A stretch of 64,000 bases of DNA, taken from the NCBI GenBank assembly GCA_963920765.1, contig OY987251.1, positions 3,536,501 to 3,600,500 on the forward strand, read 5' to 3'. The notes beneath the pieces were generated by a model that searched no databases, was not told the origin of the DNA, and worked only from the letters and a program-made list of their open reading frames with translations. A program made the position numbers and the translations under genes. Position 1 is the first letter of the stretch; each line of letters starts with the position of its first letter. This DNA comes from Ulota crispa (taxonomy: Eukaryota > Streptophyta > Bryopsida > Orthotrichales > Orthotrichaceae). Positions 566 through 63,983 of this stretch are shown one piece after another.

Positions 566-1156
566 TGTGGAAAAATAAAACTGACATTTGGCAATAGATG
601 TCTGTATATTTAGTTTGTTACTTCTACAATCATTGCGCTTCTTTTCTTGGAGAATTAGGTGAAGAGCAACACCACTAATGAAGCCACAAGTCGTCTGCAA
701 ATTATCCTTTAGCTTTTGTTCTGAAAAAATAAAACTAAAAAAGGAATTGGACTTGGAGACATTCATGAGGAATGAGGTGAGATATTTGAGGGTTTTGAGC
801 AATCTTCACTAGTGATGTTGTGTTTATTCAAACTGAATGATCTTTTGGAAGAGCATTATTTGCATTTTAACATTAAAACGAGAGTATTCAGTATTACTAA
901 GAATCAAGAAATTCATTTGAGATTTATTCAACTTCGGAAGTTTTGCAAAAACATATACTTGAATATTATTTAGCACACTCAATAATCTTGAATACTGTAC
1001 CTTACTAGCAAGTTTGGCACACAAGTGCCAAATAATTAATTAAAGTGCAAAAACATGATTAGGCAACTCAAAAATAAAGTTTAAAGGAATTAGCCACTTT
1101 AAAAAAGAAAAGAAAAAACAATATTTACGCATTCTTTGAAGTCAAATATTATAAAT
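566..1156. other. Intergenic, nothing recognised
   Basis: AT-rich, with only small chance frames. Confidence 0.5.
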
Positions 1157-1381
1157 AACGCCATATTTGTTATAATGAGAGAACAAAAACCTTGATTTTA
1201 GCTAAAACTAACATAAAACCTATCAATTTCAAGTCAATTTTGAAAGGTTTTATGTCAATTCATCTCAATTGATCTAAAACCTTTTGTGAAATTGCCCTAA
1301 CTTTTTTTAATTTTAGGTTGTATTTCCTTCAAATTACTCTCATTTCATTGGAAACCTCTCATTATAACAAATATCACGCTA
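1157..1381. mobile_element. Miniature inverted-repeat element (~225 bp)
   Basis: Perfect 19-bp inverse repeats ATATTTGTTATAATGAGAG at 1163-1181 and 1356-1374, extending imperfectly to TAACGCC and CACGCTA. TA at each edge may be the target duplication (Tc1/mariner type). Confidence 0.65.
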
Positions 1382-1829
1382 AATGAGGTAGTTAGCTATT
1401 GAATGTAATTGCAACAATTGCAGATGGCCTTCATTTTAGTATTCTTTGATAAGATGGCATTCATGAAAAAATGGTAGTTGGTAATTTATCATCTGGCTTT
1501 AATGCTTATTGCATTTATAAACTAATTTTTTCTAGTGTGTTTGGATGCTTTTTTTTAATTATGTTGTCTCTTAATAAAATTAAATTTATCTAGCACATAA
1601 TTCTACAATGAACATTTAGAGAAGTTAACAAAAATGAGTTGGAATGTGTGCTGCTTCATTTTGCAACTTTGAGCTCAAATTTTATATTGTGATCTACATG
1701 TAAATTAATATAATTATAGAACTTATTTGGTCGTGTTTCCATTTTTAGAGTTTTAGCAATTTTTTATGATTTCATTTTTTTCCAGCAATACTTAGAAATT
1801 ATTTTCCAACTTTTAGGCAATGAATGTCC

Positions 1830-1966
1830 ATTATGTTCCCAAAAGCTAATGTGTTTTCCTATTTTCAAAAAAAAGTTTCAAAAAATCAAGACAAAAATAG
1901 AGGCTGTAGGTACCTGCCTAAAATCTCATTTGTCCCCGAGGGAACACTCACGGATTTAGGGGTTAA
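1830..1966 (+). mobile_element. TTAA element, A-type right-end fragment
   Basis: From CCCAAAAGCTAATGTG through AGGTACCTGCCTAAAATC to GGATTTAGGGGTTAA it matches the last ~135 bases of the A copies. The left part is missing. A second TTAA follows directly (GGGTTAA). Confidence 0.7.
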
Positions 1967-2860
1967 GGGTTAAGCTTATGCCTAATGCATCATAACTTTT
2001 TTGTTGATTTAGCAAAATTGAGCTCTCCATATTCAAACATGAACGCCAAATTTAGCTTGTTCTTGATAAATATTTACAAATTAATAAATCAACAACCCTC
2101 CAACCACAACAACCTACCCCGCCCCGCATTTCTGCATCATAAATGTAACTGGTAAATGGCTAAAGTTTAGCAAGCCCGGTAATTTATTGGACACAAAATT
2201 ATAAAAATAACATGAATGACATCAGGGGCAATGAAAATATTAGCCTAAACATGAAAACAAAACCTTATTACTTCTGTAATATTAAATATACCCTAAGAAG
2301 ATTTGAAATACCGAAAATGCCCTCTGTTGTCTTTGAGTTCAAATAATTTAGGGATGAGTTTAATAGTTCAATAGTCAAATATGTCCTTGTGTTATTTGGA
2401 ATACCAACTATGCCCTTGGATTTCCTTGAAAATATTATTAAGAACCCTAGTTTTTTGTGCCCCTTTATTGCATTTAAAAAACAAACAAAATGACAACAAA
2501 AATTACTCTGTGATCACTACAATGGTTATGACCATAATAGACTTATATGCACACACCTTATGGAGAGCTTAAAGAACTTGCTCCCAAGATTTGGCTTGCA
2601 TTCAATTTACACTTAGTTTTTGTACTTTCCATTATCATCCAAATATTTACAAAAAATTGCAAAAATAAGCACAAGGAGTTAAGAATACTTTTAATAATTT
2701 AATGATACAAAGGTATATTTGTTAATTTATAATAATTGAGGGTCTCAAAGAACTAGGGGTATAATTGATATTCTTATACAAAGCAAAGGGTGTTTTTGAT
2801 ATTTCAAATAATATAAGGGTATATTTGAGTTTTTCAAAGATTAAGAGGCATTTTTTATAT
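1967..2860. other. Intergenic with a weak inverted repeat
   Basis: Blocks around 2283-2430 and 2680-2835 share, inversely, words such as AAATATACCCTTA and TTATTTGAAATA. Too diverged to delimit. Confidence 0.3.
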
Positions 2861-3627
2861 GGGGATTGATATGTGCACACCCAAAGTTTGATATAAACAC
2901 ACCCCCAAGGTAATTTTTAGATATTTACCATGAAAAAGCTGAATTGGAAATTTTCGAATTCAAATTTGGACTTAGAGACCTTGAATTAGTCTAGAACTAT
3001 AAAGGAAGTTAGAATTGAACAATACCTAATAAAAAAGCTTAGCTTTTTTTTTATGAACAAAAGTAAAAGTAATAGCCTACACCCTAGCTAAGCTTTTTCA
3101 TTGGATGTTGTTCAATTCTAACCTCTTATATGATTCTAGACTAAATGAAGGTCTCCAAGTCCAAATCTGAATTCAAATTTTTCAAATTCAGCATTTAGTA
3201 GTAAAAATCTAAAATTTATCCTAGGGTGTGTAAGGTAGAAATACCATAAACGGTTAAAATAGCCCGTAAGATCTAGGGATTTCTTGAGAAATTATGCTCA
3301 ATTTCTGGAGGAACAAGGATAAGGAAGAGTGCAAAAAAATAATAATCCAAGAATGAATATTGTATGCACTATGAATGTGGATTTAGGGTCTGGATTGATT
3401 CTAGTTTCATAAATGCACCTTAAATGACTACCTCTATTACCTTGCTTCAAAATAAGTTTGAACCAATCAAATACAAGGAAATAGCCTTAGAATATTTCAG
3501 AAACTTTTCAAATGCGGCTATTGTTGGTTTCAGAACAGTCTACTTCTCACAAAGTAGTAGTCAATAACAATTTTCAATATTTCAACCTTATATATCAAAC
3601 TTTGGGTGTGCACATACCAATACCCTT
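2861..3627. mobile_element. Foldback element J (copy 1), interrupted
   Basis: The left end ATTGATATGTGCACACCC then AAAGTTTGATATA matches inversely the right end at 3592-3622. Inner arms (TTGGACTTAGAGACCTTGA against AAGGTCTCCAAGTCCAAATC) pair around 3070. An insertion at 3231-3590 splits the right arm. The same structure occurs at 14911. Confidence 0.7.
3231..3590. mobile_element. Miniature element nested in foldback J
   Basis: Starts TAAGGTAGAAATA and ends TATTTCAACCTTA, inverse repeats with one mismatch, placed where the J left arm has an uninterrupted sequence. TA at both edges could be the target duplication. Confidence 0.5.
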
Positions 3628-3690
3628 TTGATATTTCCCTAGTTTGAACAAGACTGACCAAAAATGGAAATGTTGCACATGATTGCATAA

Positions 3691-3885
3691 CATTGTTAAC
3701 TAGGGAATGAGTTTCCCTCCCCGGATGGAGGTATATTTGTCCTTGATACCTACAGAGGATTTTAGTGATAACATACTCGCTCTAGCCACTCAGAGCGAGA
3801 ATATCATAACTAAATTCCTCCCTAGGTTTAGGGGGAGGAATATACCTCCACTCGAGGAAGGAAACTCTTTCTCTGGTTAACAATG
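3691..3885. mobile_element. 195-bp foldback element with GTTAAC ends
   Basis: CATTGTTAAC at 3691 pairs with GTTAACAATG at 3876. The arms (GAGTTTCCCTCC, TGGAGGTATATT, CTCGCTCT) pair almost throughout around a centre near 3786. TTAA sits within each end, as in the other TTAA elements, but the terminal sequence is different. Confidence 0.8.
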
Positions 3886-4045
3886 TCATGTGGATATAGA
3901 GTAAACGGCTGAATCTATAGTTCTACACCCCCAATACTTGTACACTTCAATACTCCATGGAGCTCCATGACTGCATTTATATCAATGTCATGGCTCCACT
4001 TGGGTTTTTTTGGGATACAATTCTACACTTGCATTAAAAAGGGAT

Positions 4046-5441
4046 CCTAAAGCAGGCTTCTTTAATTTATGTTTTTTCATAAATTAACAAATTAGCTTTA
4101 TTTATGCACATCGTGAAAGTTAATTTGTGTATTGTCATAAATTAACAAACTCATTTTTTATGTTTGCATATTTGATATCATATTAAATGTAACAAAGCAT
4201 GAAATTGCTTGCACTTTGTCACCCTCCTAAGTGAGAGGTTAGTCAACAATTTATAATACTCATAGTTTGAGAGTTTAGGAATAGAGAAGGCGGATTCAAC
4301 TCTGGCCATGCTAAGGAACATGGCGGCCTTGCCGCCATAGAAGTTGCATAGTGACTGCCATGTGGCATAAGCCAAGTGCAATTCTTTTTATAACCCCTAA
4401 AGAACTGCGGCATTTTCTCTGTGAATTTGAGTGAGAACTGCCACTTATGGGGGAGTGAGTAGAATTGTAAAATATATTTTTTTTTGGAAAATTCAACCAT
4501 AGGATCTTGGCCTAAACTATGGGAGGTACTTGTTGGGAAAAAATCAGCTCAATCTAAATGTTGAGGAGTGTGATATTTACATCCAAAGTGAAGAAAAAAG
4601 TTTTTCTTTACTGCCCAAAATTTTTAGAAGCCTTCAACCATTGATAAATCAAAAAAATTACTCTATGCAAAGTTGAGGATTTTTTTATTCATGTCCAAAA
4701 CCAAGTTAGGTATGTGTGGGAGAATTTTCAAAGAAATTGAACATGTGGATCATACTTTGTAAAATCTTGCAATGCCAAAAGGTCTAGAATTTTACAAATT
4801 CATTAGGCAAAATTGGAGGATTTATGTAAAAGTTAAAAATCTAATTTACTTTGATTCAAATGATGAAAACCAAGAAATCTTAGTCTACTACAACTTGGAA
4901 AAAAAAAACAAAAAAAAAACAAATACACAAAGAGCTAATAAAAGCAGAGCAACAAGTTCTACAAGGGGAAAAGGAATGGAGGTTTGGGAGTCCCATACCT
5001 ACCCGCAAACTAAAACTATTCATAACTTTCATCTCATTTATCAAAATTGAATGATTCAAAGCTTCCCACATACATAAAAATCTAATGAACCAATTTCAAA
5101 TTTTAATTTTTAAAAAAACTTTTTTTTTGGACTGCCTGATTCTCCCCTATTTTCAATTATTCTTGCATAACTTCTTCAATAAGTGTCCAAATGAAGAAAA
5201 AAGATAGGTGCCCACGCATATCTTTGAATTCCCCATCTTCAATAAACATTTCAAAAGATCACAAAAAGTAGTTTAGCTGTAGGTACATGCCCAAAATCCC
5301 ATTTTTCCCTTGAAGGGACAATGGTCCTTTAAGGGATAAGGAACCAACGGGCTCAATTTGTGCACATTGTCAACGGTTAATTTGTTAATTTGTGCATGTA
5401 TTTTTAGAAAAAGTAAATTAAAGAGGCTTTTCCTAAAGTCA
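4046..5441. mobile_element. Older inverted-repeat element hosting the B copy
   Basis: The left block GATCCTAAAGCAGGCTTC then TTTAATTTATG matches, in reverse complement, the right block TAAATTAAAGAGGCTTTTCC then TAAAGTC. The similarity continues inward for about 80 bases, with AAATTAACAAATTA and GCACAAATT/TGCACATCG motifs. Exact ends and the target duplication are unclear. Confidence 0.45.
4390..5339 (+). mobile_element. TTAA-type element, family B, flanked by ATAA on both sides
   Basis: The termini are CCCCTAAAGAACTGCGG and GGTCCTTTAAGGG. The flanking tetranucleotide is ATAA on both sides in the same orientation. Because ATAA is not a palindrome, this direct repeat behaves as a target duplication and not as part of the inverted repeat. 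It is nested in an older element (4046-5441). Confidence 0.75.
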
Positions 5442-5454
5442 AGAATGAGGAATA

Positions 5455-5559
5455 GTGCCTTACAAAGTTGACAGAAAACATGGGTGAATATGGGCTGTTG
5501 TTGGTTTAGGGTTTACTCTGTCAACTTTTTGTAGGGTCCCACAATATTCTCTTGTAGTG
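5455..5559. mobile_element. Possible second CACTA-like miniature element, eroded
   Basis: The right end TCTTGTAGTG is the inverse of CACTACAAGA, and the interior has the inverse pair AAAGTTGACAG / CTGTCAACTTTTTGTA seen in the better copy at 33599. The left terminus is lost or degenerate. Confidence 0.45.
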
Positions 5560-5594
5560 CCACCATCCTCAAAAATTTCACTTGAAAAAAAATT

Positions 5595-5664
5595 GGTTTA
5601 GTCATAATTACATGCCCAAAGCCCCATTTGTTCCTTGAAGGGAGAACAATCCTTTAGGGATTAA
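5595..5664 (+). mobile_element. TTAA element right-end fragment
   Basis: Carries ATTACATGCCCAAAGCCCC, AAGGGAGAACAATCCTTTAG and GGATTAA, the right-end signature shared by families A and B. No left end is found nearby. Confidence 0.6.
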
Positions 5665-6186
5665 AACTACTACAATGATGCTTGGAGAAGGTCAACTTTT
5701 GTAAAAAAAACATATGGATAATATTAAGGTTCCACTCTCTTTTTGTATTCCTAGCCTAATTCAATAGAGTGTTTGTTTGTGATCCATGCTTGGATATTGT
5801 CAAACTTGTTATTTGGCCTAAGGCATTGACCTTATTCAAGCATCCCTGTACACTACACCTGAAATTTTTAAGTTCTACATGAAATGTGCTTGAATTATAA
5901 GCGACCATTAAACATGGGTCTTGTTGTTCATGTTCATTTTGTCATGCATTATATACATGCCTCTCTCACCCCTTGAAAAAACAGTACATGACAAACTTTC
6001 AGAAAAATAATAAAATATACCTAGTCATATGGTCCTTTGCTTGCTTCCATTTTAGAATTGTTTTATGCAAACTACATGTTAAAGTCCATGTCAGCAAATA
6101 TAATTAAGGATTGGAAAAACAGAACAATTTCATTGATTTTGAACGTACAAAGATGTCAACACATGATCTAAAACAACCATTTTTCA

Positions 6187-7113
6187 TTAACCCCTAAAGG
6201 AACAAAGTTCCTTTGGGGACTTTTGAGATTTGGGGCATGTACCTATGGCTAAACTACTTTGCATGATTTTCTGAAACTTTGATTGAAGGTGAGGAATTCA
6301 AAGATCTACGTGGGAATGTAATTTTTACTTCATTCCAGCATTTACTGAAGAAGTTATGCATGAATTTCTAAAAATAGGCAAGATTGGGCAGCCAAAACTT
6401 CTTTAAAAAAATAATTTTTTTCAAATAAAAATCTGAAATAGGTTCTTTAGATTTATAAAAAACACGGGGGGCTTTGAATCATTCAATTTTGCTGGATGAG
6501 ATGAAAGATATGAGAAGTTTTAGTTTACGGGTAAGTGTGGTTTTGCTTTGAAAAAATAAGTTATGAACTTTATTTCTGAACGCAAATTTAACATTTTTGC
6601 AAAAAAGACTATTGGAAAGGGTGAAGATTGCTTGCTAGAACAATCTCACCATTGGGATTATTGTGATTCAATTCCATTGCAAGGTTATTAACAATGTAAG
6701 ATTTTGTTCAATCTCAAACCTACTTCTATTTAATGTTTTTTCAAAAAATAAAAATGAAGTATTTTTTGTTTTGGTTTTTTTTCAAAGATTCTCAACTCAA
6801 TTCCCCACCATACAAAAATAAACCTCAAAACTCCATGGTGCAAAAATTTTAAGTTAAAAAAGTTCAAAGTCAAATAATCTAATCTTGCGCGGTGCAAAAA
6901 AGCTTGTTTTTTATACTTTCAACGCAAATATCTTGCAATCTGTGAGGTCAAAGTTTTAAATTTTGAATAACACATTCTTATACAAGTCTAGTACAAGATC
7001 CTATGGTTAAATACAAAAACAGACCAATCTTCAAACTTTTTTACTCTTTGCCATAGAAGTGGCAGTTTTGAGTGTTTTGACAAAATAAAGGCCATGGTCC
7101 TTTAAAGGTTTAT
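6187..7113 (-). mobile_element. TTAA element, chimera of B (one half) and A (other half)
   Basis: Read on the minus strand, the right end and about 350 adjacent bases are B-type (AAAACTTCTCATATC, CATGCCCAAA end), whereas the remainder, including the other terminus with the A signature (CTCAAAACTGCCACTTC, CCATAGGATCTTG), is A-type. TTAA is intact at 6187-6190; the opposite end reads TTTA. A and B share only their terminal ~80 bases, so this copy is a mosaic. Confidence 0.75.
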
Positions 7114-8581: not shown

Positions 8582-9496
8582 TTAACCCCTGAAGGACCAT
8601 GGCGTTTATTTTGTCAAAAAACACTGAAAATTGCCACCTCTATGGCAAAGAATAAAGATGTTTGAAAATTGGTCTTCCTGCGTATCTAATTGTAGGATCT
8701 TGTACTAGACTACTATGAGAATGTGTCATACAAAACTCAAGAATTTTGACCAAATAGATTGCAAGATATTTGCATTTAAAGTCTAGAAAAGAAGGTTTTT
8801 TGCACCTTGCTTGACTAGATTATTTCACTCTAAACTTTTTTAACGTAAATTTTTTGCACCTCAGAGTTTAGAGATTGATTTTTTAGTGATGAAAATTTGA
8901 GATCGTAATTTTGGGAGAAAATAAAACCAAAGATAATTAATTTTCATTCTTAAAAAAAACACTAGGCAGAAGAAAGTATGATATTGAACAAAAACTTAAA
9001 GTGCACATAACCCTGCAATGGAATAGAAATGCAATATTCCCAATGGTGACATAATTGTTCTAAAAAGCAAACTTCACCCTCTCCATCAACATTTTTTGAG
9101 GAAATGTTAATTGCATTCAAAAATCAAGTTTCTAAGTTCTTTTTTCAAGAAGATGCTTGATTTGCCCAAAAAACAAGATTGTCCATAACATTCTCATAAC
9201 TAGTCCAAATGGAATGAATCAAAGCTTTAGATGTAGAAAAACATATAGTGTATGAGAAAAAAAATCAAGTTTTTATAAGAATTTCTTTTGCTGCCTAGAA
9301 TCCCCAAATTTGTGCTTATTTGGGCATAACTTTTGCTATCTAGCATCAATTGGAATAAAAATGATATCCCCAAAAACTAATGTGTTTTTGTATATTTAAA
9401 AAAAAATTCAAAAAAATAGGACAAAAATTGAGGCCGTAGGTACTTGCGTGAAATCTCGTTTGTCTGCCAAACGGACAGTGGTCCTTTAAGTGTTAA
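8582..9496 (+). mobile_element. TTAA element, family A
   Basis: A 915-bp copy flanked by TTAA at both ends (TTAACCCCTGAAGGACCATG ... GTCCTTTAAGTGTTAA). Landmarks shared with the other A copies: CTATGGCAAAGA near the left end, GCACCTTGCTTGACTAGATT, CCCAATGGTGA in the middle, ACAAGATTGTCCATAAC and GGTACTTGCGTGAAATC at the right. No open frame of note. Confidence 0.85.
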
Positions 9497-10274
9497 TATA
9501 TATTTGGTATTGCCTTACCGTGTTAAGAGCAATCAAAATGAATTGTTGGAACTTTGTTGGTTGTAAGCAAACTATATGAGATAGGTTTGGCAATCCAATA
9601 TTCCCCAGTATGTTGTCCAAAATGAAAATCGAATTATGCTTAACCCACTAGGTGGAGAGTTCATTTTTAAAGAATTAATCGACATGTTACATTCACGGAT
9701 TTCTAATATTCCATAGCGCCCCTCTTAATTTAAATAAACTCAGGCATACAATTGCAAGGAAAAAAGTGAAATGCCAATATACTCTAAACTTTGCATTATA
9801 GAAGTGCTTGTTTAATTAAAGCTGAAGTAGTCTATCTCATGAATTGATATTTAGCAATGGAATGCCTAGTTGTATTAGTGAATGAATATTACTTGATTTT
9901 TGAGAATATTACTTGATTTTTGAGAATAACTTGTTTAAGAGCTTCCATTTTACCTATGTGTAGAAGTCGGAATGAGAGTCATAACAAATAAATTAAAGTT
10001 CTGTTCAACAATCACTGAATAGCAAGACACTGGTTTATTGTCTGTAACACGATAAATACTACTTCTAAAATATAACTTTCAAAGTGGCAGAGTACTACAA
10101 CAACAGACATGCATTTAATGCAACATACCTTTCTACCTTCCCTGCCACAAAATAAACTTTAAAGTACTTGCTGGAGTTAATTTATAATTGGACAGTGATT
10201 GCTAAGAACATGGAAAAAGTTATTCATAAGTTACGAAAGGGAGGAAATAGGGGTTCAAGCACGAAGTGGCTAAA
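9497..10274. other. Intergenic, one 23-bp duplication
   Basis: GAATATTACTTGATTTTTGA is repeated in tandem near 9885-9930; otherwise featureless. Confidence 0.5.
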
Positions 10275-10635
10275 AGAGGATTACCTACCTACCACAACTT
10301 ACCTACCTGCCACGACTTACCTACCTACCACAACTTATCTACCTACCACGACTTACCTACCTACCACAACTTACCAACCTACCACTACTTACCTACCTAC
10401 GACTACTTACCTACCTACCACTACTTACCTACCTACCATGACTTACCTACCTACCATGACTTACCTACCTACCATGACTTACCTACCTACCACAACTTAC
10501 CTACTTGCCACGACTTACCTACCTACCACAACTTACCAACCTACCACAACTTACCTACCTACCACTACTTACCTACCTACCACTACTTACCTACCTACCA
10601 TGACTTACCTACCTGCCATGTCTTAAGTACCTACC
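10275..10635. repeat. 18-bp minisatellite (about 19 units)
   Basis: The unit is TTACCTACCTACCACAAC, with variation at the last six bases (ACGAC, ACTAC, ATGAC). It is open in two frames (TTYLPT and YHDLP repeats), a chance result of an 18-bp unit without stops. It ends where Helitron-like copy 2 begins. Confidence 0.9.
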
Positions 10636-10636
10636 A

Positions 10637-11052
10637 TCTATCTACTACATCCATATGTCTATAAAATACAATTTACTCATTTGGCGATCCTTTTATTGCA
10701 ATATTTTTACCATGTGGGTAAATAATCATGCATGTGTAAAAACTTGGTTGGGAAAGGTAAAATTTGTATGAGAAAAATTGTGGTAAAAAATTTATGTTGG
10801 TAGAAAATAAAGAATGTTTTTTGCGTGAAAGATTGTGACGTTCCTTTTACTGCATGGGTAAAAGATATAGAACAACAAACGCTTTACTGCAAGGGAATAT
10901 GTTGTAAACAAAAACAACTGTTTAGTGCATGGGTAAAATTTGAAATTGGAGAGCACTGACAAAAAGTAAGAATTATTTTCTTGCAAAGGAAATGCACATA
11001 AGTGGGCTTGATTTTATTTTACGTCCATCAGACCAATAGGTGCCTATACTAG
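10637..11052 (+). mobile_element. Helitron-like repeat, family Z (copy 2)
   Basis: Starts A|TCTATCTACTAC directly after the minisatellite and ends GTGCCTATACTAG|T. Helitrons insert between A and T, start TC and end CTRR, so these edges fit. The hairpin before the end is eroded. Confidence 0.5.
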
Positions 11053-22313: not shown

Positions 22314-25299
22314 ATGGCAGACGGAGATCCACCGAACCATAGGAGACGGCCGGTTAAAGCCCTTCCACGAGCAGAGTGGGTTGGCAAAGAGGTCATTCTA
22401 ATTGGCAATGCAAGGGTGGTATGTGGAAATGGATTCATCCAATTTGCAGGCACCGGTCAGTGCATTAATGGTCATAGTACTCTTGGAAAGGAGAAAGTTG
22501 GTGTCGTAATATATAGCGTTGAGGATGGAGAACCATACAAAGTACACAGTTTAAAAGAATGGTTTGTCCACCGCACAATTTACAATGGCATGTCACTACA
22601 CAAACATGAGTGTGCGCACAAGCTTAGAGTTGGTTCCTCTTCAAATAGGAAAGGAAAGAGTGCGTATTCATCAAATAGGAAACGTGCGCCTCCTAAACTC
22701 ATGAAAGGTGATAGATTGCTATCTCTCACGCATTCATCGGAAACACTGAGAAAAGATTGCTATGAAAATGAATGCATGAAGAAGTGTACGTACGCAGCTA
22801 TAGCCACTGCCAGATATGAATTCTACTACTCTAGCCACATCCGGAAAATGGACATGAAATTGGCAGTACATGGAAATTATGCACACTCTTATCGTGACAT
22901 AGAAAAGAAAATGGCGGTGATCGACGGCCGCCAAGTATGTATGAAAGACTGGAAATTGGTTTACGGAGTACCGGAGTCTTGTTTTTACAAGTACCAAAAG
23001 TTAGCAAAGCAAGGCATAAGAGCTCAAGATCGTGGTAACAAGAGTTTGCTAAAGACTACCAAATCCACAAAGCAAGCAATTCAGTCAATGAAAGTGATCC
23101 TAGAGCACAAATTTGACAGTATGCCACATCGTACACGTATCTTATCTTCAAGGGAGAAGGTCATGGACAAAGTTTTACCATTAGGTACAATGTGGATGAA
23201 GATTTTGGAGGATGTGAACAAGGTCAGCATATTCTTTGTATAGCAATTATTAGTTTTGAAATTCACTATATTCAAGAAATGAACTCGTCTTCTAATATAT
23301 TGATAATTGGTTCATGGTATGAAAATCTAATAAGCACCTAGTACTTTTGTATATATTTTTAAGTATTTTTATATGGATATAGCCATTACTTCTTGTTGTT
23401 CTTTGTACAAAACCATGCTAATTTAACAGATGAACTTGTATGAACCAGAAGCAAGAAAAAGCCGGTCTGAAACCAGTGTTGTATTCATCCTATACCCGTA
23501 TTCGGAAGAAATGTTTTTCCAATTACACTGTTAAGCACTCGGGAGACAACTTTGCTCGATGTGGATGCTGTGAGAAGTTGCTCAATTTACAAAATGCCCA
23601 TCTAGCACGGTTGCCGGCGTGGCTTGCATGCAAGAAAAAATACCAAGCTCATTTAAACGAGCAAAAGAGCCCTCAAAATCAATATTATGGCAGTCAGGCT
23701 TCTTTGCAATATTACCCTGAGCGTGTGCTATCAATTATGCACGATAAGATGGACCACTCAAAAATTGCATCTCCGTGTTTTGCAAACAAATCAAAAGCAA
23801 CCGACGGACTACAGAAATCGCCCGTGTTTGTCTCTGGTATACTTGCCCATGAGCATGGTGATGGAAAATATGCTCATTTTATATTGGATAAGTTTCCAGC
23901 AAATTGTAACCAAACCATTGGTTTGATTTGCAAACTATTATGTGATCTAGAGTGTGAACCAATGTATAGTAATCCATCTCAACTCTTTGAGGGGCACCAG
24001 CGCTCTCCTTTGTATGAAGCATTAATGGAAGGGTTTGCATGCTGCAAGGACTCAATCAAAGTTTGTGACGGTACCACTACATCCAAAAAAAAACTTCCAC
24101 CACTTTTACATGTTCAACTGGATAATTGTTGGAAAGACAATAAAAGCAGATTCATCATATGTTTTTGGTCATTATTAGTAGCAAAGATAGTGTTTAACAA
24201 AATCAAAGTATTGTTCATGCTGGTAGAGCACATCCACAACAACATCGATGCATTATTTGGCAAATGGAGTATGGATTTGCGAAAACACGACTATCCTACC
24301 GTTCCATTGCTAATGAAATCTTTGATGGAGTTGGAGAAAGAGTCGGTGATTCTGCACTTCATTGAGGAGGTACCAAATTTCAAGTCGTTTATTGGTGATT
24401 ATATATGCTCAAAGAGTAAGCAATTAATAGGACATACAGGTGGCCGTCAATTCTTGTTTACCAAGCGGGCAGACGGTTGGCCCATAATGCAATATATAAT
24501 GCATAGCACAAACAAAGAATGGCTACCAAAAGAAAAAATTAAATTGTGGAAAGAAGACAAAAATGGGAATGCGATTGTGCCGGAGGGTACACCAAAACTA
24601 GTAAGTCCAAGACCATTCAAAGCCAAAGAAGATATCAAGAAGGGCATTGCTGGATTTATTGAGAATTAGAAAGCAGTGATCAATGCGGATGCCACGGGTA
24701 GGTGTGAAGAAAAATACATTGATTTGATTAGATATTGGGAGAGAGTGAAAGCAACCAATAGTGATACAAAGGTACAAAGCAATGTGCTAACCGGAAATTT
24801 TTGGCCTGAGACACGTCAGACTTTTGATTCCCCTTTGTTGGCTATGATGCAAGCGCTTGCAGAGGAAGAAGAGATGGAAGAAACATTCATTGGACAATGC
24901 AATCTTTGCAGAAAACCTGAATTTTGTGTTTGAAAAGATTGCAAGAAGGAATATTTTGTATGTGTGAAGCCTTCCATTGAAAGTGTGGAACCAATGTGGC
25001 TTAGATTAGCAAAGTCAGACCCATTGTTCTAAGTAGGCTCCTCAAACCATAAACAAATTCTCCTCGAATGGTATAAGCCTGCTAGAAGAAGAGGTGTGCC
25101 AGCAGGATTTTACATTGGCTGGGACAAAACTCCCCCAATGAAATGGCAACCGGACGGTGAGACTTTCAAAGGAGCACAATGGGTGAACATTGACGCAATA
25201 ATAACAGCATAGAAACCAAGGGGGCAGAGCTTTGATAAAGTTTCTTTTCCTCAAAATCAAATTGTTAGAACATTAGAGACGCTCGCCGCTTCTTGTTAG
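22314..25299 (+). pseudogene. DUF7869-like protein gene, decayed (possible DDE-type transposase relative)
   Basis: Exon 1 (22314-23222) encodes about 303 residues with the run QVCMKDWKLVYGVPESCFYK and the MPHRTR motif. The rest (from about 23440) carries HSGDNFARC, then LLHVQLDNCWKDNKSR (about 24100-24150) and HIHNNIDALFGKWSM (about 24230-24270). This order (DNC..NK, then an H-h-D-D-I-D motif) is what I recall for DUF7869 proteins, an uncharacterised RNase-H-like family found in plants, oomycetes and animals; I could not search. The frame then continues through single in-frame stops at 24667, 24931, 25030 and 25210 to a likely natural stop at 25297, with readable sequence between (FWPETRQTF, FYIGWDKTPPMKWQP). 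The expected GHTHDDID reads EHIHNNID here, so key acidic residues are lost. A non-functional relic is the best reading; the cellular role of the family is unknown. Confidence 0.6.
23223..23448 (+). other. Probable intron of the DUF7869-like pseudogene
   Basis: Exon 1 ends at a codon boundary in AAG|GTCAGC (GT at 23223). Two acceptors fit. AG at 23447-23448 (AACCAG|AAGCAA) keeps the frame and leads to SSYTRIRKKCF...HSGDNFARC. AG at 23428-23429 (TTTAACAG|ATGAAC) looks better by sequence and gives MNLYEPEARKS, but enters the wrong frame for the downstream homology, so using it would imply a later frameshift. The intervening 200-odd bases are T-rich with stops in all frames. Confidence 0.5.
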
Positions 25300-28497: not shown

Positions 28498-28662
28498 TAA
28501 GCAACAATTAAGCAAACATTTGAGGGTAGTTTTTTTATAGTTTGTTCTCTCATGTGAGCAACAAGGATTGATTTGAGTGTAGTTTTTCTACAATTTGATC
28601 TTTCAACCACTAGATGTGAGCAACAAGGATTTGAGTGTAGTTTTTTTACAATTTGATCTCTC
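28498..28662 (+). repeat. Three tandem ~60-bp repeats just upstream of the Tc1-like frame
   Basis: The phrase GCAACAAGGATTTGAGTGTAG, or a close variant, followed by TTTTTACAATTTGATCTCTC occurs three times in succession and ends immediately before the transposase start. Such direct repeats could be subterminal transposase-binding repeats of the Tc1-like element, but no matching inverted terminal repeat was found. Confidence 0.6.
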
Positions 28663-28666
28663 AGCC

Positions 28667-29663
28667 ATGTATCTTATTACCAAACAGAAGGCACTTGTGG
28701 TAGGCCAGTGTCAAGCAAGTGAAAGGAAGGCACAAATTGCGAAGACCTTATCACTTCCAAAGTTAACTGTTGCAAGCTTTCTCAAGAAATACAAAGTTGA
28801 GGGGACAGTGGAGACCTCACCATGTTCTAGTCGGCCATTGAACTTGACGGAGAGAGATGCAAGATCAATGCAGTGGTTCATCAAGCAAAATCAACATGCA
28901 ACTTTGAAAGAAATTACATGTGCATATCCCACAAAGGTGCATCCGAACACTATGCGTAAGTTACTCAAATCTTTTTGAATTCAGAATTGCATTGCCTTTT
29001 TTGACTCAAAAACATCGTAAAGCTTGTCTTAGTATTGCAATAGAACATAGGAAGTGGACTGTTGAGCAATGGCAGAAGGTCATTTGGATAGACGAGTCCA
29101 CATTTGAGATTGGCAAAAATTCGCGCTATGTGCGTGTTTGGAGATCCCTTGGTGAAGACTATTGCATGCAAAGATTGTCTTGCGCCAACTTTCAAAAGTG
29201 GAAGAACATCAGTCATGGTATGGAGTGCATTTTGCAATGCAATGAAGTTGCCATTGGGCATTATGCTCCCAAGACGATGCACAACATAAGATTTTGTAGA
29301 TGTTACTTACAACGGACATTTGCCTGCGTTCCTCCCCTATGTTCATGATGCCATCTTAATGGAGGATGGAGCTCCGGTCCATTGCAGTATAGTCTCAAAA
29401 AAATGGCGTGAAGATCATCACTTGAAGAAGCTTGATTGGCCTGCACAATCTCTAGTTTTGAATCCCATTAAGAACTTTGGTATGCAATGAAGAGTGCCAT
29501 ACAAAAACATTCCACAATGCCGTAGAACTTTGAGCAAATGAAGATAGCTTTGGAAGAAGTATGGAAGGAGATTGAGTGCACCAAATTTGCATCTTTGATT
29601 AAAAGTATGCCTGTTCAAATGGCAGCAATGGTTGAAGCAAAAGGAAGCTCAACACGATGGTGA
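28667..29663 (+). pseudogene. Tc1/mariner-type transposase, broken (DD34E spacing, E changed to K)
   Basis: The first piece (28667-28978) holds a helix-turn-helix region (AQIAKTLSLPKLTVASFLKK), a GRPR-like joint (SSRPLNLTERD) and a second HTH. After a frameshift near 28970 the catalytic part follows: VIWIDESTF with the first Asp at 29091, TSVMVWSAF after another shift near 29180, a stop at 29287, then LMEDGAPVH with the second Asp at 29365 and LDWPAQSLVLNPIKN. Exactly 34 residues separate that Asp from the third catalytic position, which is Lys (29470) instead of Glu. A further shift near 29480 and a stop precede a typical C-terminus (SLIKSMPVQMAAMVEAKG). This is the Tc1 DD34E architecture rather than the DD39D usual in plant mariner-like elements. 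About 330 codons is the normal family length. At least three shifts and several stops make it inactive. Confidence 0.85.
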
Positions 29664-31007: not shown

Positions 31008-31660
31008 TTAACCCCTAAATGCCCAAGGCATCCAATTTGGGTGTTTGCAAAACTTTGAAGACGAATAAAATCTTATCAAATCCCTATTTTTGGAATTTTC
31101 TTTTGAACACAAGTTTTTTCTTAAGTCCATTTTCAACATCAAAAATCAGATTTTGAAAGTGAGTGTTCACAATTTTTCAATTCAAGATATTGTACAAGGG
31201 TGTCCACTGCAATCTTGAGTTTTCTAGTGTTGGAAGATCTTGAAAATGAGCCTCATACACACTAGAGCTTGGAGAAAATTCGCATTAGAAATCCATTTAA
31301 AAAAAATGTAGGATTAAATTATGAAAGAAATAAATTGGTTGAGGTTAAACATGTAATGACCTTAAACCTCATATTCTTTTGATGACCAACTTTTTACATT
31401 TGAAATGTGAAATGAGAATTAGAAGACTTCAAGTCACTTTTGCAGTTTTAACACCCTCATGTTCAAACATTATAATCTTTCAAACTATAAGTAATATTGT
31501 TGAGTTTTCTTTTTTCATGTAATCTCTAATATGTCAAGTTTAAATTTGTAAGGTTACAGTTTAAAAAAACCTGATGAGATGTATGAAAAGGTTGATTGTT
31601 TGTTCACTTTTCTGAAAATGCCAAGAAGTTCAGAAAGGCGTACGGGCATTTAGGGGTTAA
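31008..31660 (-). mobile_element. TTAA element, family C, intact 653-bp copy
   Basis: Perfect 17-bp inverted ends (TTAACCCCTAAATGCCC ... GGGCATTTAGGGGTTAA) with TTAA at each edge. This is the uninterrupted reference for the two other C copies. Non-coding. Confidence 0.85.
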
Positions 31661-41694: not shown

Positions 41695-41931
41695 TTAACC
41701 CTTAAGCGCCCCAACAACAGTATACTATTGATGGGGCCCACAACTTCATTTCATTTATAAAAAAAATTGTACGATGAAAATAGCCATGGTTGGTCCTCAT
41801 CAACACAGAATGTAGCTTTTTTTCAAATACTACGGTCACTTTTTTTGGATGTAATTTTCCAAGCTGTGGTGGCCATTAAACCCCCCATTTTCTCCTAAAT
41901 CTAAAAATAATTCTAGGCGCTCACGGGTTAA
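41695..41931 (+). mobile_element. TTAA element, family E
   Basis: A 237-bp copy, TTAACCCTTAAGCGCCCCAA ... GGCGCTCACGGGTTAA, sharing its right TTAA with the A element that starts at 41928. Confidence 0.8.
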
Positions 41932-43778
41932 CCCCGAAAGGACTAGGGCCTTTATTTTGTCAAAAGACACTCAAAACTGCCACTTCTATGGCAAAGAGAA
42001 AAAAAGTTTGAAAATTGGTCTTTTTGCATATCTGACTATAGGATCTTGTATTAGACTTGTACAAGAATGTGTCATTCAAAACTTAAAAAGTTTGACTGCA
42101 CAAATTGCAAGATATTTGCGTTTAACCCCTAAAGGACCAAGCCATTTTTTTGTGAAAAACAAAGAAAACTGCCACTTTTGGCAAAGCAAGTACAATGGTA
42201 AGAATATTTTTTTTACAATAATTCAACTATAAGATCTTATAGTACACTACAAGAGGTACACATGGAAAAAAATTCAACTCAATCTACACAAAAATGAGTG
42301 AGATATTTACATCTGAATTACGGAAAAAAGTTTCTTTTTGCTGCTACCCAGAAACTTCAGAAGGCTTTGACCACTCTTAGATCAAAAAATTACTCTACAC
42401 AAAGTTGTGGGTTATTTTCCCCATGTAGGAGACCAAGTTAGGTATGTGTGGGATAATTTTCAAATCAATTGGAACTATATAACACATGGGAAAAATAGTA
42501 AGTAAAAAGAAGTAGAGAATGAGTCAAATCACTAAATTGTTAAGAATTGAATTCTTGAAATGAAAAATGCAAATCCCAATGGCTAAAATGTTGTGATAAA
42601 CAATATCCATCCTTTGGTTTTGTTTTTTTTCCAAAATATTGAAAATTGAGTAAAATAAAGGACTTCAAAGTTTACTTGAGTAGAGAATCTAGAACTGCCC
42701 GCAAACCAAAACTCTTCATAACTTTCATCTCATTGATTGAAATTGAATGATTCAAAGCTCCCAACGTCTATTTAAGTCTAAAGAACCTATTTCAGATTTT
42801 TATTTGAAAAAGCTGAAATTTTTAAAGACGTTTTTGGCTGCCCGAGGAGCAACTTTTTCTAGATTTCATACATAAATTCTTCAATAAATGTCGGAATGAA
42901 GAAAAAATTACATTCTCACGTAGATTTTTGAATTCCTCATCTTCAATAAAAGTTTCAGAAAATCATGCAAAGTAGTTTAGCCATAGATACATGCCCAAAA
43001 TCCCAATTGTCCCCCGAGGGGACAATGGTTCTTTAGGGGTTAAAGTGTAGAAAACAAGCTTTTTTGCACCTTGCACAACTAGAATATTTGACTTTGAACT
43101 TTTTTAACTTAATTTTTTTGCACTATGGAGTTTTGAGGTTTATTTTTTTATGGTGGGGAATTGAGTTGAGAATCTATGGGAAAAAAAAAAAATTTAAAAT
43201 TCTCAATTTTCATTCTTAAAAAAAACATTAAATAGATGAAGGTTTGAGATTGAACAAAAACTTATATTGTTAAAATCCTTGCAATGGAATTGAAACACAA
43301 TAATCCCAATGGTGAGATTTTTCTAGCAAGCAATCTTCACCCTCTTCAATAATTTTTTTTGCAAAAATGTTAAATTTGCATTCAAAAATGAAGTTTATAC
43401 GTTATTTTTTCAAGAGGATGCTTGAATTGCCCAAAAAACAAGATTGTCCATAACTTTCTCATAACTAATCCAAATGGAATGAATCAAAGCTTCAAATGTA
43501 AACAAATATATAATCTACGAGCAGAAAAAATCAAAAAGAAAAAAATTCAAGTTTTTGTAAAATTTCATTTGTTGCCCGAACCCCCCAAATTTTTGCTTAT
43601 TTGGGCATAACTTTTACTCCTTGGCATTTATTGGAATAAAAATTGTACTCCCCAGAAGCTAATACATTTTCCTATCTTCAAAAAAAGTTTCAAAAAATAG
43701 AAACAAAAATTGAGACCATAGGTACTTACCTGAAATCGCATTTGTCCCCCAAACAGACAATGGTCCTTTAGGGGCTAA
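41928..43778 (+). mobile_element. TTAA element, family A, interrupted by a B element
   Basis: The left end is TTAACCCCGAAAGGACTAGG with the A signature TTTGTCAAAAGACACTC; the right end is GGTCCTTTAGGGG followed by CTAA, one base off TTAA. Removing the nested B copy gives about 930 bp, the family length. Its left TTAA is shared with the right end of the E element 41695-41931. Confidence 0.8.
42122..43043 (+). mobile_element. TTAA element, family B, nested inside an A element
   Basis: Begins TTAACCCCTAAAGGACCA and ends GGTTCTTTAGGGGTTAA. It lies inside the A-family copy 41928-43778: the host reads GATATTTGCGT up to the left TTAA and resumes AGTGTAGAAAACAAG after the right TTAA. The three intact A copies carry the uninterrupted form at the same place (GATATTTGCATTTAAAGTC near 8770, and equivalents near 47530 and 59350). 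So the insertion duplicated TTAA exactly. Internally the left third is B-like, followed by a stretch resembling A, then the B right end. No coding capacity; non-autonomous. Confidence 0.85.
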
Positions 43779-45429: not shown

Positions 45430-46450
45430 TATCTGTATGAATCATATGGTAGCTTTGGAAATTTGAATGTTATGGGTTAGTTGAAACCATCACTCACTTC
45501 ATTGACTAAATGGATGTTTTTCATTTGTGTCATGTATACAACTATATACAACATCCATTTGATTGGGTTCAATTCATGTTGTTTTTGTTAATTACCAAAT
45601 GTTGACGCTTGCTACACTACTCATTCACCATTAAACTTTTGTTAGGATTTTCATATGTTAGATAGAATTTAAAGTAATAAATTTAGTAAGTTTTTAATTT
45701 CTATTTATGTGATAATATCACACAAACTACAGATGTGATATTATAGAGGTCCTTCTGATTTTAGTAGTATAATGGGTTTTCTATGGAAATTTGATTCAAA
45801 AGAATGATAGAGTTGTATTGTAAGTTTTTGAGTATTTGGGAGCTTTGGTTTTGAACGGTTGCGATGGTCAGTGTCAATTATAATCAAGCAAATAAAGCTT
45901 CTTTTCAGATGACGGGATTCTATAAAAGGCCTAAATTTGAGTTTTTAATTCTGTTGAAATTGAGGTCTTCCAACAAGGTTGGAGAGAATTACATATTCGT
46001 ACAAAGTGAGTTGATTGAGACGGCAAAAAAAATTGGTTGAAAACAATTGGCTATATTTCGAAGAAGATCTAAATATAGTGAATAACAATATAGTGTAGGA
46101 AATGGTGCATACTCATAAAAAACCATTTAAAATGAGAAAGGCTAGGATTCAACCAGCGAAAATCAAAACCTCCCAAGTGTTGGTCTTTTGCTTCTTCTTT
46201 TTCAAAATAAATGATTATAAAATTGGCTTACATCAAGATGTTTTACAATTGAATGTATGCTGAAAGCTTATGCTGAAAGCTTTTGGTTTTCTATTTGAGG
46301 AGGGTTCCTTCGCTTTTCCTACATCCAAATCTTTTCAAATTATCCGAAAGTTAAATGATTGAACGAAGTTACAAAATTGTATCTATGATTCGTGCATATT
46401 AATAATAATAAAACAAAGTTATAAATTAAAATCCAATGACAATAGCGCAT
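45430..46450. other. Intergenic, one small hairpin
   Basis: AAATGGATGTT at about 45509 pairs with AACATCCATTT at about 45551; otherwise nothing recognised. Confidence 0.5.
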
Positions 46451-46856
<406 letters not shown>

Positions 46857-47056
46857 NNNNNNNNNNNNNNNNNNNNNNNNNNNNNNNNNNNNNNNNNNNN
46901 NNNNNNNNNNNNNNNNNNNNNNNNNNNNNNNNNNNNNNNNNNNNNNNNNNNNNNNNNNNNNNNNNNNNNNNNNNNNNNNNNNNNNNNNNNNNNNNNNNNN
47001 NNNNNNNNNNNNNNNNNNNNNNNNNNNNNNNNNNNNNNNNNNNNNNNNNNNNNNNN
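46857..47056. other. Assembly gap, 200 N
   Basis: A run of exactly 200 unknown bases between the microsatellite and an A-family fragment. The round number suggests a placeholder and not a measured length. Confidence 0.95.
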
Positions 47057-47217
47057 TCTTGAGTTTTGTATGACACATTCTTATAGTAGTCTAGCACAAG
47101 ATCCTATGGTCAGATATGCAAAATGCCTGATTTTCAAACTTTTTTACTCTTTGCCATAGAGGTGGTAGTTTTGAGTATCTTTTGACAAGAAAAAGGCCAT
47201 GGTCCTTTAGGGGTTAA
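47057..47217 (-). mobile_element. TTAA element, family A, left end only (cut by sequence gap)
   Basis: The reverse complement of this stretch is the A-family left end, identical base for base to 47336-47496, ending in TTAA at 47214-47217. It abuts the run of N, so the rest of the element is unknown. Perfect identity, where other A copies differ at many sites, means either a very recent inverted duplication or an assembly error beside the gap. Confidence 0.8.
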
Positions 47218-47335: not shown

Positions 47336-48265
47336 TTAACCCCTAAAGGACCATGGCCTTTTTCTTGTCAAAAGATACTCAAAACTACCACCTCTATGGC
47401 AAAGAGTAAAAAAGTTTGAAAATCAGGCATTTTGCATATCTGACCATAGGATCTTGTGCTAGACTACTATAAGAATGTGTCATACAAAACTCAAGAACTT
47501 TGACCGCACAAATTGGAAGATATTTGCATTTAAAAAGTAAAAAACAACTTATTTTGCACCTTGCTTGGCTAGATTTTTTAACTTTGAACATTTTTAACTT
47601 AAAATTTTAGCCCCACAGAGTTTGGAATTCTATTTGTGCATGGTGGGAAGTTGAGTTGGGAATCTTGGGAAAAAATTTCAAAAATGAATACTTAATTTTC
47701 ATTCTTTAAAAAATCATTAGGTAGAAGAAGGTATGAGATTGAAGAAAATCTTGAATTGCTAATAACCTTGCAATGGAATTGAAACGCAAAATCCCAATGG
47801 TGAGATTGTTTTAGAAAGCAAACTTCACCCTCTCCAACAATTTTTTTTGAAAAAATGTTAAACCTGCATTCAAAAATGAAGTTTATAAGTTATTTTTTCA
47901 AGAAGATGCTTGAGTTGCCCAAAAAACAAGATTGTCCATAACTTTCTCATAACTAGTCCAAATGGAATGAATCAAAGCTCCAGAAGTAGATAAAGATATA
48001 ATCTATGAGAAAAAAAAATTAAAGTTTTTTTTTCAAGTTTTTATAAGAATTTTTTTTGCTGCCCCTAGTCCCCAGATTTGTGCTTATTTGGGCATAACTT
48101 TTTCTCCCTCGCATCAATTGGAATAAAAACTATATTCCCCAAAAGCTAATGTGTTTTTCTATTTTCAAAAAAAAATTCAAAAAATTAGGACAAAAATTGA
48201 GGCTATAGGTACCTGCCCGAAATCCCATTTGTCCCCCAAAGGGACAATGGTCCTTTAGGAGTTAA
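47336..48265 (+). mobile_element. TTAA element, family A
   Basis: A 930-bp copy with TTAA at both ends and good termini (TTAACCCCTAAAGGACCATG ... GGTCCTTTAGGAGTTAA). Its first 161 bases are identical, in inverse orientation, to 47057-47217 across a 118-bp spacer. Non-coding. Confidence 0.85.
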
Positions 48266-59162: not shown

Positions 59163-60088
59163 TTAACCCCTAAAACCTTAGGGCCTTTATTTTGTCAAAA
59201 GACACTCAAAACTGCCATTTCTATGGCAAAGAGTAATTTTTTTTGGAAATTGGTCTTTTGCATATCTAACCATAAGATCTTGTACTAGACTAGTATAAGA
59301 ATGTGTAAAAAAAATTCAAAAACTTTGACCTCACTTATTGCAAGATATTCGCCTTTAAAGTGCAAGAAATAAATTTTTTTGCACCTTGCATGACTATATT
59401 ATATAACTTTGAACTTATTTAACTTAAAATTTTTGACCCACATAGTTTTGAGGTTTATTTTTTTATGGTGAGAAATCAAGTTGAGAATCTATGGAAAAAA
59501 ATCAAAATATATATATATATATGTATTTTTCATTCCTAAAAAAAACATTAGGTAGAAGAAGGTATGAGATTGAACAAACACTTAAATTGTTAATAACCCT
59601 CCAATGGAATTGAAACACAATAATCCTAGTGATGAGATTGTTCTAGCAAGCAAACTTCACCCTTTCCAATAGTTTAAAAAAATGTTAAACTTGCATTTAA
59701 AAATGAAGTTTATAAGTTATATTTTCAAGAAGATGCTTGAATTGTCCAAGAAACAAGATTGTCCATAACTCTCTCATGACTAGTCCAAATGGAATGAATA
59801 AAAGCTTCATATGTAGAAAAAACTATAACCTATGTGAAAAAAGAAAAAGAAAAAGAAAAAACCAGATTTTGTAAAAAAAATTGTCCAATCTCTATTAAAT
59901 TTGTGCTTATTTGGGCATGAATCTTGCTCCCGGGCATAGATTGGAATAAAAATTATATTCCCCAAAAGCTAATGTGTTTTTCTATCTTCAAAAAAAGTTT
60001 CAAAAAATCAAGACAAAAATTGAGGCCATAGGTACCTACCTAAAATCCAATTTGTGCCCCAAGGGTACAACTAGGCTTTGGGGGTTAA
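59163..60088 (+). mobile_element. TTAA element, family A
   Basis: A 926-bp copy with TTAA at both ends (TTAACCCCTAAAACCTTAGG ... CTAGGCTTTGGGGGTTAA). All A-family landmarks are present in order. Non-coding; it is the last repeat before the ALOG locus. Confidence 0.85.
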
Positions 60089-63101: not shown

Positions 63102-63983
63102 ATGACATCTGACTTCCGCAACACCGAGTTCCGCAACATTCTGAACCAAACGGCGCCGGCCATTCAACCGGGAGATTCTGTTCGGCCGGGCGAGCGGACG
63201 GCGTTCGACCGGGCGGAGGGTCACTTTAACATGGGCGCGCTGCAACATAGGGATTCTAAGCTTGGCAACATTCGAGAGAATGACTTCGCCAGCCGGATTC
63301 AGTCCCTCATGAGTGGCGATGTGGCGCTGGGCAACTTGCAGGTCGACCATGGCGCCGGGCCGTCCACGCTGATGGGGTCCTCGCCCGGCGGCGGCATGGT
63401 GCCCAACGGCGGCATGCCGCCCGGCATGCAGGCGGACGCGCAGCAGCAGCACGATCAGAACTCGCGCGCGCCCAGCCGCTACGAGGCGCAGAAGCGGCGA
63501 GACTGGAACACGTTCGGGCAGTATCTGCGCAACCATCGGCCGCCGCTGGCGCTGACGCGGTGCACGGGCGTGCACGTCCTGGAGTTTGTGCGGTACCTGG
63601 ACCAATTCGGCAAAACCAAGGTGCACAACCCGTCGTGCCCCTTCTTCGGGCTGCCGCACCCGCCGCACCCGTGCCCGTGCCCGCTGCGGCAGGCGTGGGG
63701 CTCCCTGGACGCGCTCATCGGCAGGCTGCGGGCGGCGTTCGAGGAGAACGGCGGCAAGCCCGAGAGCAACCCGTTCGGCGCCAGGCAGGTGCGGCTGTAC
63801 CTGCGAGAGGTGCGCGAGATGCAGGCCAAGGCGCGCGGGATCGCGTACGAGAAGAAGAAGCGGAAGCGGATGCCGGCGGCGTCCGAGGGCGGCGCCAACG
63901 GGGCGTCGACAGGCATGAGCCTGAGCAACGGCGCGGGCGGCCTGAGCCCCGGCAACGTGCAAGCGCTCCCTGCCCAGCAGTAA
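63102..63983 (+). CDS. ALOG-domain (LSH/G1-like) nuclear regulator
   Basis: A 293-residue protein with an ALOG domain at about residues 124-254: a basic entry ([17 protein letters not shown]), the [20 protein letters not shown] helix, a zinc-ribbon insert in which H175, C179, C191 and C193 can bind metal, then [16 protein letters not shown]. The lysine/arginine run KKKRKR (251-256) is the expected nuclear signal. The family (LIGHT-DEPENDENT SHORT HYPOCOTYLS, G1, TAWAWA1) consists of plant DNA-binding transcriptional regulators of meristem and lateral-organ development; its core is thought to descend from tyrosine recombinases of DIRS-like retroelements. The N-terminal ~120 residues and the Gly/Ser/Asn-rich tail are low complexity, as usual. 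This ATG gives the longest frame with the whole domain; the context TTCTTAATGA is weak. No intron is needed. The second half is strongly GC-rich, unlike the AT-rich flanks. Overlapping reverse-strand frames are by-products of this GC bias. I cannot tell which paralogue it is. Confidence 0.95.

Follow-up and report, generated by a model that had tools for sequence, protein, structure and literature searches.

TTAA-duplicating MITEs of a land-plant genome and their piggyBac transposase-bearing relatives

Which transposition system is responsible for the short elements, flanked by TTAA, that recur in this 64-kb stretch of DNA (the window, C10:3536501-3600500 of a 274,817,297-base (274.8 Mb) assembly)? 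One such element, B, lies within another, A, so that a single locus offers both the insertion and, in other copies of A, the site before insertion. We are highly confident that A and B are piggyBac MITEs of a plant nuclear genome, and that larger elements hold the transposase gene that would move them in trans.

A nested insertion and its empty sites

The nested insertion and its uninterrupted counterparts in the window are made up as follows:

41928..41931: TTAA, 5' target-site copy of A
41932..43774, + strand: host A element, non-autonomous, interrupted by B (41928-43778 with flanks)
42122..42125: TTAA, left target-site copy of B
42126..43039, + strand: B element, a 914-bp MITE, ends matching those of transposase-bearing elements
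43040..43043: TTAA, right target-site copy of B
8582..9496, + strand: A-family copy, uninterrupted site, single TTAA at 8776-8779
47336..48265, + strand: A-family copy, uninterrupted site, single TTAA at 47530-47533
59163..60088, + strand: A-family copy, uninterrupted site, single TTAA at 59355-59358
6187..7112, - strand: A-like copy (6548-7103), its other end B-like, uninterrupted site TGAA near 6919

The preliminary description held that B (42122-43043 with flanks) splits A at a TTAA that is single in three other A copies, and this proved correct: when the two halves of A were aligned to the copies starting at 8582, 47336 and 59163, they overlapped by exactly four bases (8776-8779, 47530-47533 and 59355-59358), a single TTAA in all three. 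Because the halves overlap by these four bases in the empty copies, B must have inserted into A with duplication of TTAA, and we regard the nested insertion as confirmed. Altogether the site was found uninterrupted in five copies: four have a single TTAA and one, the minus-strand copy in the window, has TGAA; the fifth (L045) lies outside the window and has the single TTAA. The left flank of A itself is TTAA and its right flank CTAA (43775-43778), one substitution away. B starts with CCCCTAAAGG; reading inward from its right end gives CCCCTAAAGA, which differs by one change.

Transposase-bearing elements with the ends of B

A transposase-bearing copy with the same termini had been named in advance as the decisive find, and four came to light, with a DDD-type piggyBac domain, the copies read carrying stops. 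These elements of 8.0-8.8 kb have B-type termini, TTAA on both sides and the transposase domain inside (E011 8,033, E025 8,829, E026 8,530 and E038 8,255 bp, including both TTAA). They fall in a clade of five (L011, L025, L026, L034 and L038) with 100/100 support in a tree of 32 transposase domains. All five clade elements have the downstream end TTAACCCCTAAA[A/G]G, and four of the five have a matching left end with TTAA: TTAACCCCTAAAGGACCATTGTCCCC in E025, the same bar a few bases in E026 and E038, and TTAACCCCTAAAAGCCC in E011. No left end of E034 was found within the fetched stretch.

Similarity to B extends well into these elements. Positions 1 to about 350 of B (1-352) match the right ends of E038 (81%), E025 (75%), E034 (75%) and E026 (72%), and positions 743/774-922 match the left ends, over roughly 150-180 bp, of E025 (92%), E038 (87%) and E026 (81%); for E011 the matches are 88% over 57 bp at the right end and 79% over 52 bp at the left. 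Since B thus matches both their right ends (72-88%) and their left ends (79-92%), it is an internally deleted relative of the 8.0-8.8 kb elements, in reverse orientation. The ends of A match those of E025 and E038 more weakly (69-79%).

The length of the large elements is partly due to nested repeats, as in E011, whose interior holds a 918-bp MITE with TTAA on both sides; E025 and E038 have repeated internal blocks in common, which are also present outside E026. A CATA-type simple repeat of more than 600 bp lies 3' of the transposase domain in E011 (L011 ~3030-3650).

A second, shorter group comprises E012 (5,746 bp) and E022 (5,456 bp), which have CCCCTAAATGCCYAAG ends and align end to end in five blocks; the right flank of E022 is TTGA. 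The window terminus at 31011 resembles the ends of this pair, as does, to a lesser degree, that at 11916; the former belongs to one further feature:

31008..31660, + strand: 645-bp element, CCCCTAAATGCCC termini, TTAA on either side, a terminus resembling that of E012/E022

We propose a division of labor in which larger elements, of 8.0-8.8 kb in the CCCCTAAAGG group and 5.4-5.7 kb in a CCCCTAAATG group, carry the transposase gene, and elements of the A/B type keep the ends only and are mobilised in trans. If movement follows the reaction worked out structurally for piggyBac, the transposase would free the element via hairpins on the flanking TTAA, and the element would then enter another TTAA, which would become duplicated.

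Transposase domain and lineages

In a profile search of the genome, PF13843 (piggyBac-type DDE_Tnp_1_7) matched at least 120 times, with E 1.3e-73 at best; this is a lower bound because 116 of the 528 candidates were scored, and some elements yield two rows. Most rows have in-frame stops; by our count 10 of the 120 are stop-free, several of them part-length. The domain was found inside matching ends in both size groups (E 3.2e-44 for the E011 piece, 2.6e-59 for the E012 piece). Against the Trichoplusia-type reference, T. ni transposase PDB 6x67, the E011 piece aligned at E 1.8e-17 with D at all three positions of the catalytic triad D268, D346 and D447 (PMC7351741); the E012 piece matched piggyBat (9c0f) at E 1.7e-16 and 6x67 at E 3e-13, and the L040 frame matched 6x67 at E 3.6e-20. 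When five rows were aligned, all five had the first two Asp, and the third was present in three of the four rows reaching that far, N replacing it in L040, which is of another lineage. The E012 and E011 frames have Cys-rich stretches at their C-terminal end, and no zinc-domain Pfam model matched the C-terminal piece at E 0.01. Going by the split matches, the transposase gene seems to be interrupted by a short intron.

Further frames precede the transposase domain by ~1.5-2 kb (L040 1425-1775, L044 1419-2054, and L039 5912-6646 on the minus strand). Those of L040 and L044 have an NGYI-PPPPP stretch in common (DNA 66% alike), and those of L040 and L039 an RYLF-RxIAKxLG motif, with a Pfam match in neither; four upstream frames were checked against Pfam, without a match. 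They are possibly a first exon or a second protein.

The 32 domains of the tree form many lineages, with pairwise identity of 26-80% (median 34%), and the genome also contains further piggyBac lineages whose ends read TTAACCC. Among the subset of transposase loci for which element ends were read, L009, L014 and L018 end in TTAACCCTTCA[T/C][T/C]GCC, and in L043, which takes in L009 with more sequence on its sides, there is a 5,023-bp end pair with TTAA; the ends are CCCATTAAGGATC and CCCTTTAAGGACC in L044 and CCCTTTAGGGACC and CCCTTTAATGACC in L013, and L036 and L027 end in CCCATTAAGGACC and CCCTCTAACATCC. Short terminal inverted repeats of the CCCCTAAAGGACCA type stand at both ends of the A/B-type elements, and CCC-starting termini occur in other lineages as well (CCCTTCATTGCC, CCCTTTAAGGACC). 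Other loci showed no clear end within the sequence stretch examined. L044 was tried as a parent on the strength of its terminus CCCTTTAAGGACC and rejected, matching no MITE of the window and only the MITE adjoining it; a partner end at 6,617 bp was likewise discarded as belonging to that neighbouring MITE, L044 being ~5.65 kb long with TCAA as its right flank. Among viral contigs, a search for transposase relatives gave 79 pattern matches, none of them confirmed.

Given this coexistence, the MITEs might be moved by a piggyBac lineage other than the L011/L025/L026/L034/L038 clade, especially as one of the TTAACCC-end lineages has CCC[A/T]TTAAGGA[C/T]C ends resembling the MITE terminus. We think such cross-mobilisation unlikely, although it is the alternative to be taken most seriously: B shares its ~350 bp and 150-180 bp with the named clade, well past the inverted repeat, and the L044 element (594-6246) is without a match to the window MITEs at E 0.01.

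That the superfamily is piggyBac is indicated by the combination of TTAA duplication, CCC ends, PF13843 domain and D-D-D triad. The preliminary description had read TTAA duplication with CCC termini as piggyBac-type, and the PF13843 domain with D-D-D between matching ends bears this out. At base 4 the MITE terminus CCCCT has C, unlike the T of the superfamily terminal motif CC[C/T]T (PMC2872659). Kolobok, another TTAA-duplicating superfamily, would fit the duplication taken by itself; we nonetheless consider Kolobok-type elements very improbable here, because their termini are 5'-RR...YY-3' (PMC9587614) rather than 5'-CCC...GGG-3' and because the transposase domain between the matching ends is PF13843. 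The THAP domain had no match in the genome, which is weak evidence since the control genomes gave none either.

A second insertion and genome-wide flanks

For a piggyBac origin of A and B a second before/after comparison was available in E011. A joined-flank search (33 queries against a 344-kb database) gave spanning hits for B, for E011 and for one self-match, that of L076_2027, which was dismissed as an artefact. E011, the transposase-bearing element of 8,033 bp, has TTAA on each side, as against a single TTAA in its two empty counterparts, L058 1050-1244 and L059 784-599. These coordinates lie inside E012 and E022, and therefore the target that E011 entered was a member of this second family of piggyBac elements.

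Genome-wide, exact TTAACCCCTAAAGG sites numbered 15,411 (7,719 forward and 7,692 reverse), compared with 1 + 0 for the reversed-pattern control; with up to two mismatches there were 69,740 (34,796 + 34,944), compared with 3,339 (1,638 + 1,701) for the control. At the same tolerance the window has 34 sites where 0.71 are expected, and its element density is about twice the genome-wide average. Counting two ends per element at ~0.9 kb each, the figures for up to two mismatches suggest ~33,000 elements and about one-tenth of the genome, an estimate that ignores solo ends and pools related families.

The flanks of genome-wide copies had been singled out beforehand as a check, on the reasoning that random flanks would speak against TTAA targeting. 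Counted across the genome with no flank condition, TTAA precedes 7,555 of the 8,876 exact CCCCTAAAGGACCA sites (85%), as against the ~1% that we estimate from base composition, so flanks at random frequency were not what we saw. Element pairing was set aside as TTAA evidence, because it allowed up to one mismatch to TTAA and because its 29 rows (TTAA flanking both ends in 23, one end in four, neither in two) include some loci twice (L002/L003, L004/L005) and some wrong pairs (window 41931-43039 and an L076 overlap).

The kinship of the A and B families and the many repeats in the region might invite recombination or an assembly error as the source of the A/B arrangement in place of transposition; the base-exact junction with its four-base duplication against five empty copies, the same pattern at the unrelated site of E011, and TTAA at 85% genome-wide make this exceedingly improbable.

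The B family itself seems to have spread in a burst, with a single source or a few, as judged from nine copies each about 5% from the majority sequence. The 40 best-matching candidates, scored out of 9,395 at first look, comprise B itself and 39 further copies with identities of 87-90%, nearly all of full length. In a sample of B and eight of these 39 copies, hence drawn from the best-matching ones, divergence was 4.4-6.1% from the majority sequence and 8.0-10.7% pairwise; of the variable sites, 200 are singletons and 84 are shared. TTAA stands on both sides in seven of the nine, the other two having TTAG/CTAG and TTAT/ATAA.

The host

ALOG and SBP are plant transcription-factor families, and the window includes a gene of the first:

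63102..63983, + strand: ALOG-domain gene (E 6.2e-63), marking a land-plant host

Twelve SBP-domain matches were found in the genome, on C1, C3, C4, C8 and C9, large contigs where the elements occur as well. The ALOG gene in the window and the SBP matches on five large contigs are the grounds on which a land-plant host is supported, and they agree with the plant-like genome of the preliminary description. Neither SBP nor PF13843 had a match in 14 control genomes, which are believed to be prokaryotes and hence provide no plant negative control. A contaminant as the source of the piggyBac genes is barely credible when transposase matches and B copies occur on every contig from C1 to C10 (16-41 Mb), with the ALOG gene in the same 64 kb and SBP on C1, C3, C4, C8 and C9.

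Architecture of the ends

The right end of B contains a subterminal palindrome:

43006..43026, no strand assigned: ATTGTCCCC tcg GGGGACAAT reading inward, bp 14-34 from the terminus

We scored inverted repeats by their centre over 81 termini of the present group, with clusters weighted equally. The top centre was bp 25 at 4/4 clustering thresholds (z 4.5, 3.5, 4.2 and 4.1; 95% shuffle maxima 3.2-3.3), and an internal control 120 bp further in had no palindrome peak (z -0.5, -0.9). Twelve ends of other lineages also peaked at bp 25, at z 3.2, just below the 95% shuffle maximum of 3.3. Left unclustered, the same 81 termini peaked at bp 28, which we attribute to redundant A/T-rich right ends. The palindromes of different families are unrelated in sequence, ATTGTCCCC..GGGGACAAT having its centre at 24 and CAAGTGGCTGTT..AACAGCCACTTG at 25. 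In the T. ni piggyBac complex, the palindrome contacted by the cysteine-rich domains occupies bp 17-33 of a single end and has its centre at about bp 25 (PMC7351741). By analogy, we infer that binding of the C-terminal domain at a bp-25 palindrome may be a conserved mode.

Comparison with known systems and significance

To T. ni piggyBac (IFP2; 6x67/6x68) the elements are alike in TTAA duplication, CCC...GGG ends, the aligned D268/D346/D447 and a palindrome centred near bp 25 of the end (PMC7351741). They differ in length, T. ni piggyBac having 2,472 bp (PMC10140906) compared with the 5.4-8.8 kb found here, partly nested repeats, as well as in the land-plant host and the seemingly intron-split gene; animal piggyBacs in the literature consulted, at 2.1-3.5 kb, are likewise shorter. 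PiggyBat (PDB 9c0f) is a relative by its transposase (E 1.7e-16 for the E012 piece), but it is a bat element and distant in sequence. A parallel in design may be drawn with the CMITEs of Acropora corals and AmiPB1, TTAA MITEs and a piggyBac relative with common ends, for which an allele pair with and without the insertion is also described (PMC2872659); there the host is an animal, and similarity past the inverted repeats is weak, in contrast to the ~350 + 150-180 bp of B.

The preliminary description considered piggyBac poorly documented in land plants, which fits the literature consulted. The superfamily, a cut-and-paste group familiar from animals, is placed in animals, fungi and protists and in plants only occasionally, red algae being one example (PMC12732532), and the portions of PMC8086355, PMC10140906 and PMC10813416 available mention plants in passing only. 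Even so, the class had already been named in plants: PiggyBac is one of seven MITE superfamilies of angiosperms (PMC10004981), and 1,230 PiggyBac-labelled repeats (122 kb) are given for a fern (PMC6890710). The angiosperm MITEs are classed by repeat features, and the available part of that account names no transposase-bearing parent (PMC10004981). Among the matches listed from the open-access literature, none was by its title about piggyBac transposase families of a moss, liverwort or lycophyte.

The superfamily is thus already known, and what is new is its land-plant host and its abundance. That a land plant has more than 100 transposase matches, and ends in the tens of thousands, suggests that the superfamily can thrive in a plant nucleus. 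On balance we favor, with some reserve, a wider reading: that piggyBac is a dominant DNA-transposon superfamily of this genome, with several anciently diverged lineages that have long elements of their own, ~30,000 MITEs making up maybe one-tenth of the genome, and a grip on palindromic ends conserved from insects to plants. The many natural end variants could be used to test the asymmetric-end model of piggyBac, and the genome also provides TTAA-targeting elements resident in a plant; the findings also suggest that repeat annotations of other plants could merit re-examination for the piggyBac class.

Other features

Several other features were seen in the window. Degraded Tc1/mariner-like transposase frames lie at 28595-29348, the first with HTH_SB at E 4.7e-4, under Pfam's cut-off, and the second with no Pfam match. 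Two long frames at 22314-24669, the second with DUF7869 (E 4.2e-36), are perhaps another mobile element. A TA-rich long repeat at 46419-47159 includes a run of masked or unknown bases, and one frame of a tandem array at 10168-10664 reads repeated TTYLPTT. Elsewhere in the genome, pairs of equal-score hits in opposite orientation, 14-75 kb apart, suggest large inverted duplications, the candidate pairs being:

C8:11143124 and C8:11218206
C2:36765124 and C2:36779670
C7:18203169 and C7:18223004
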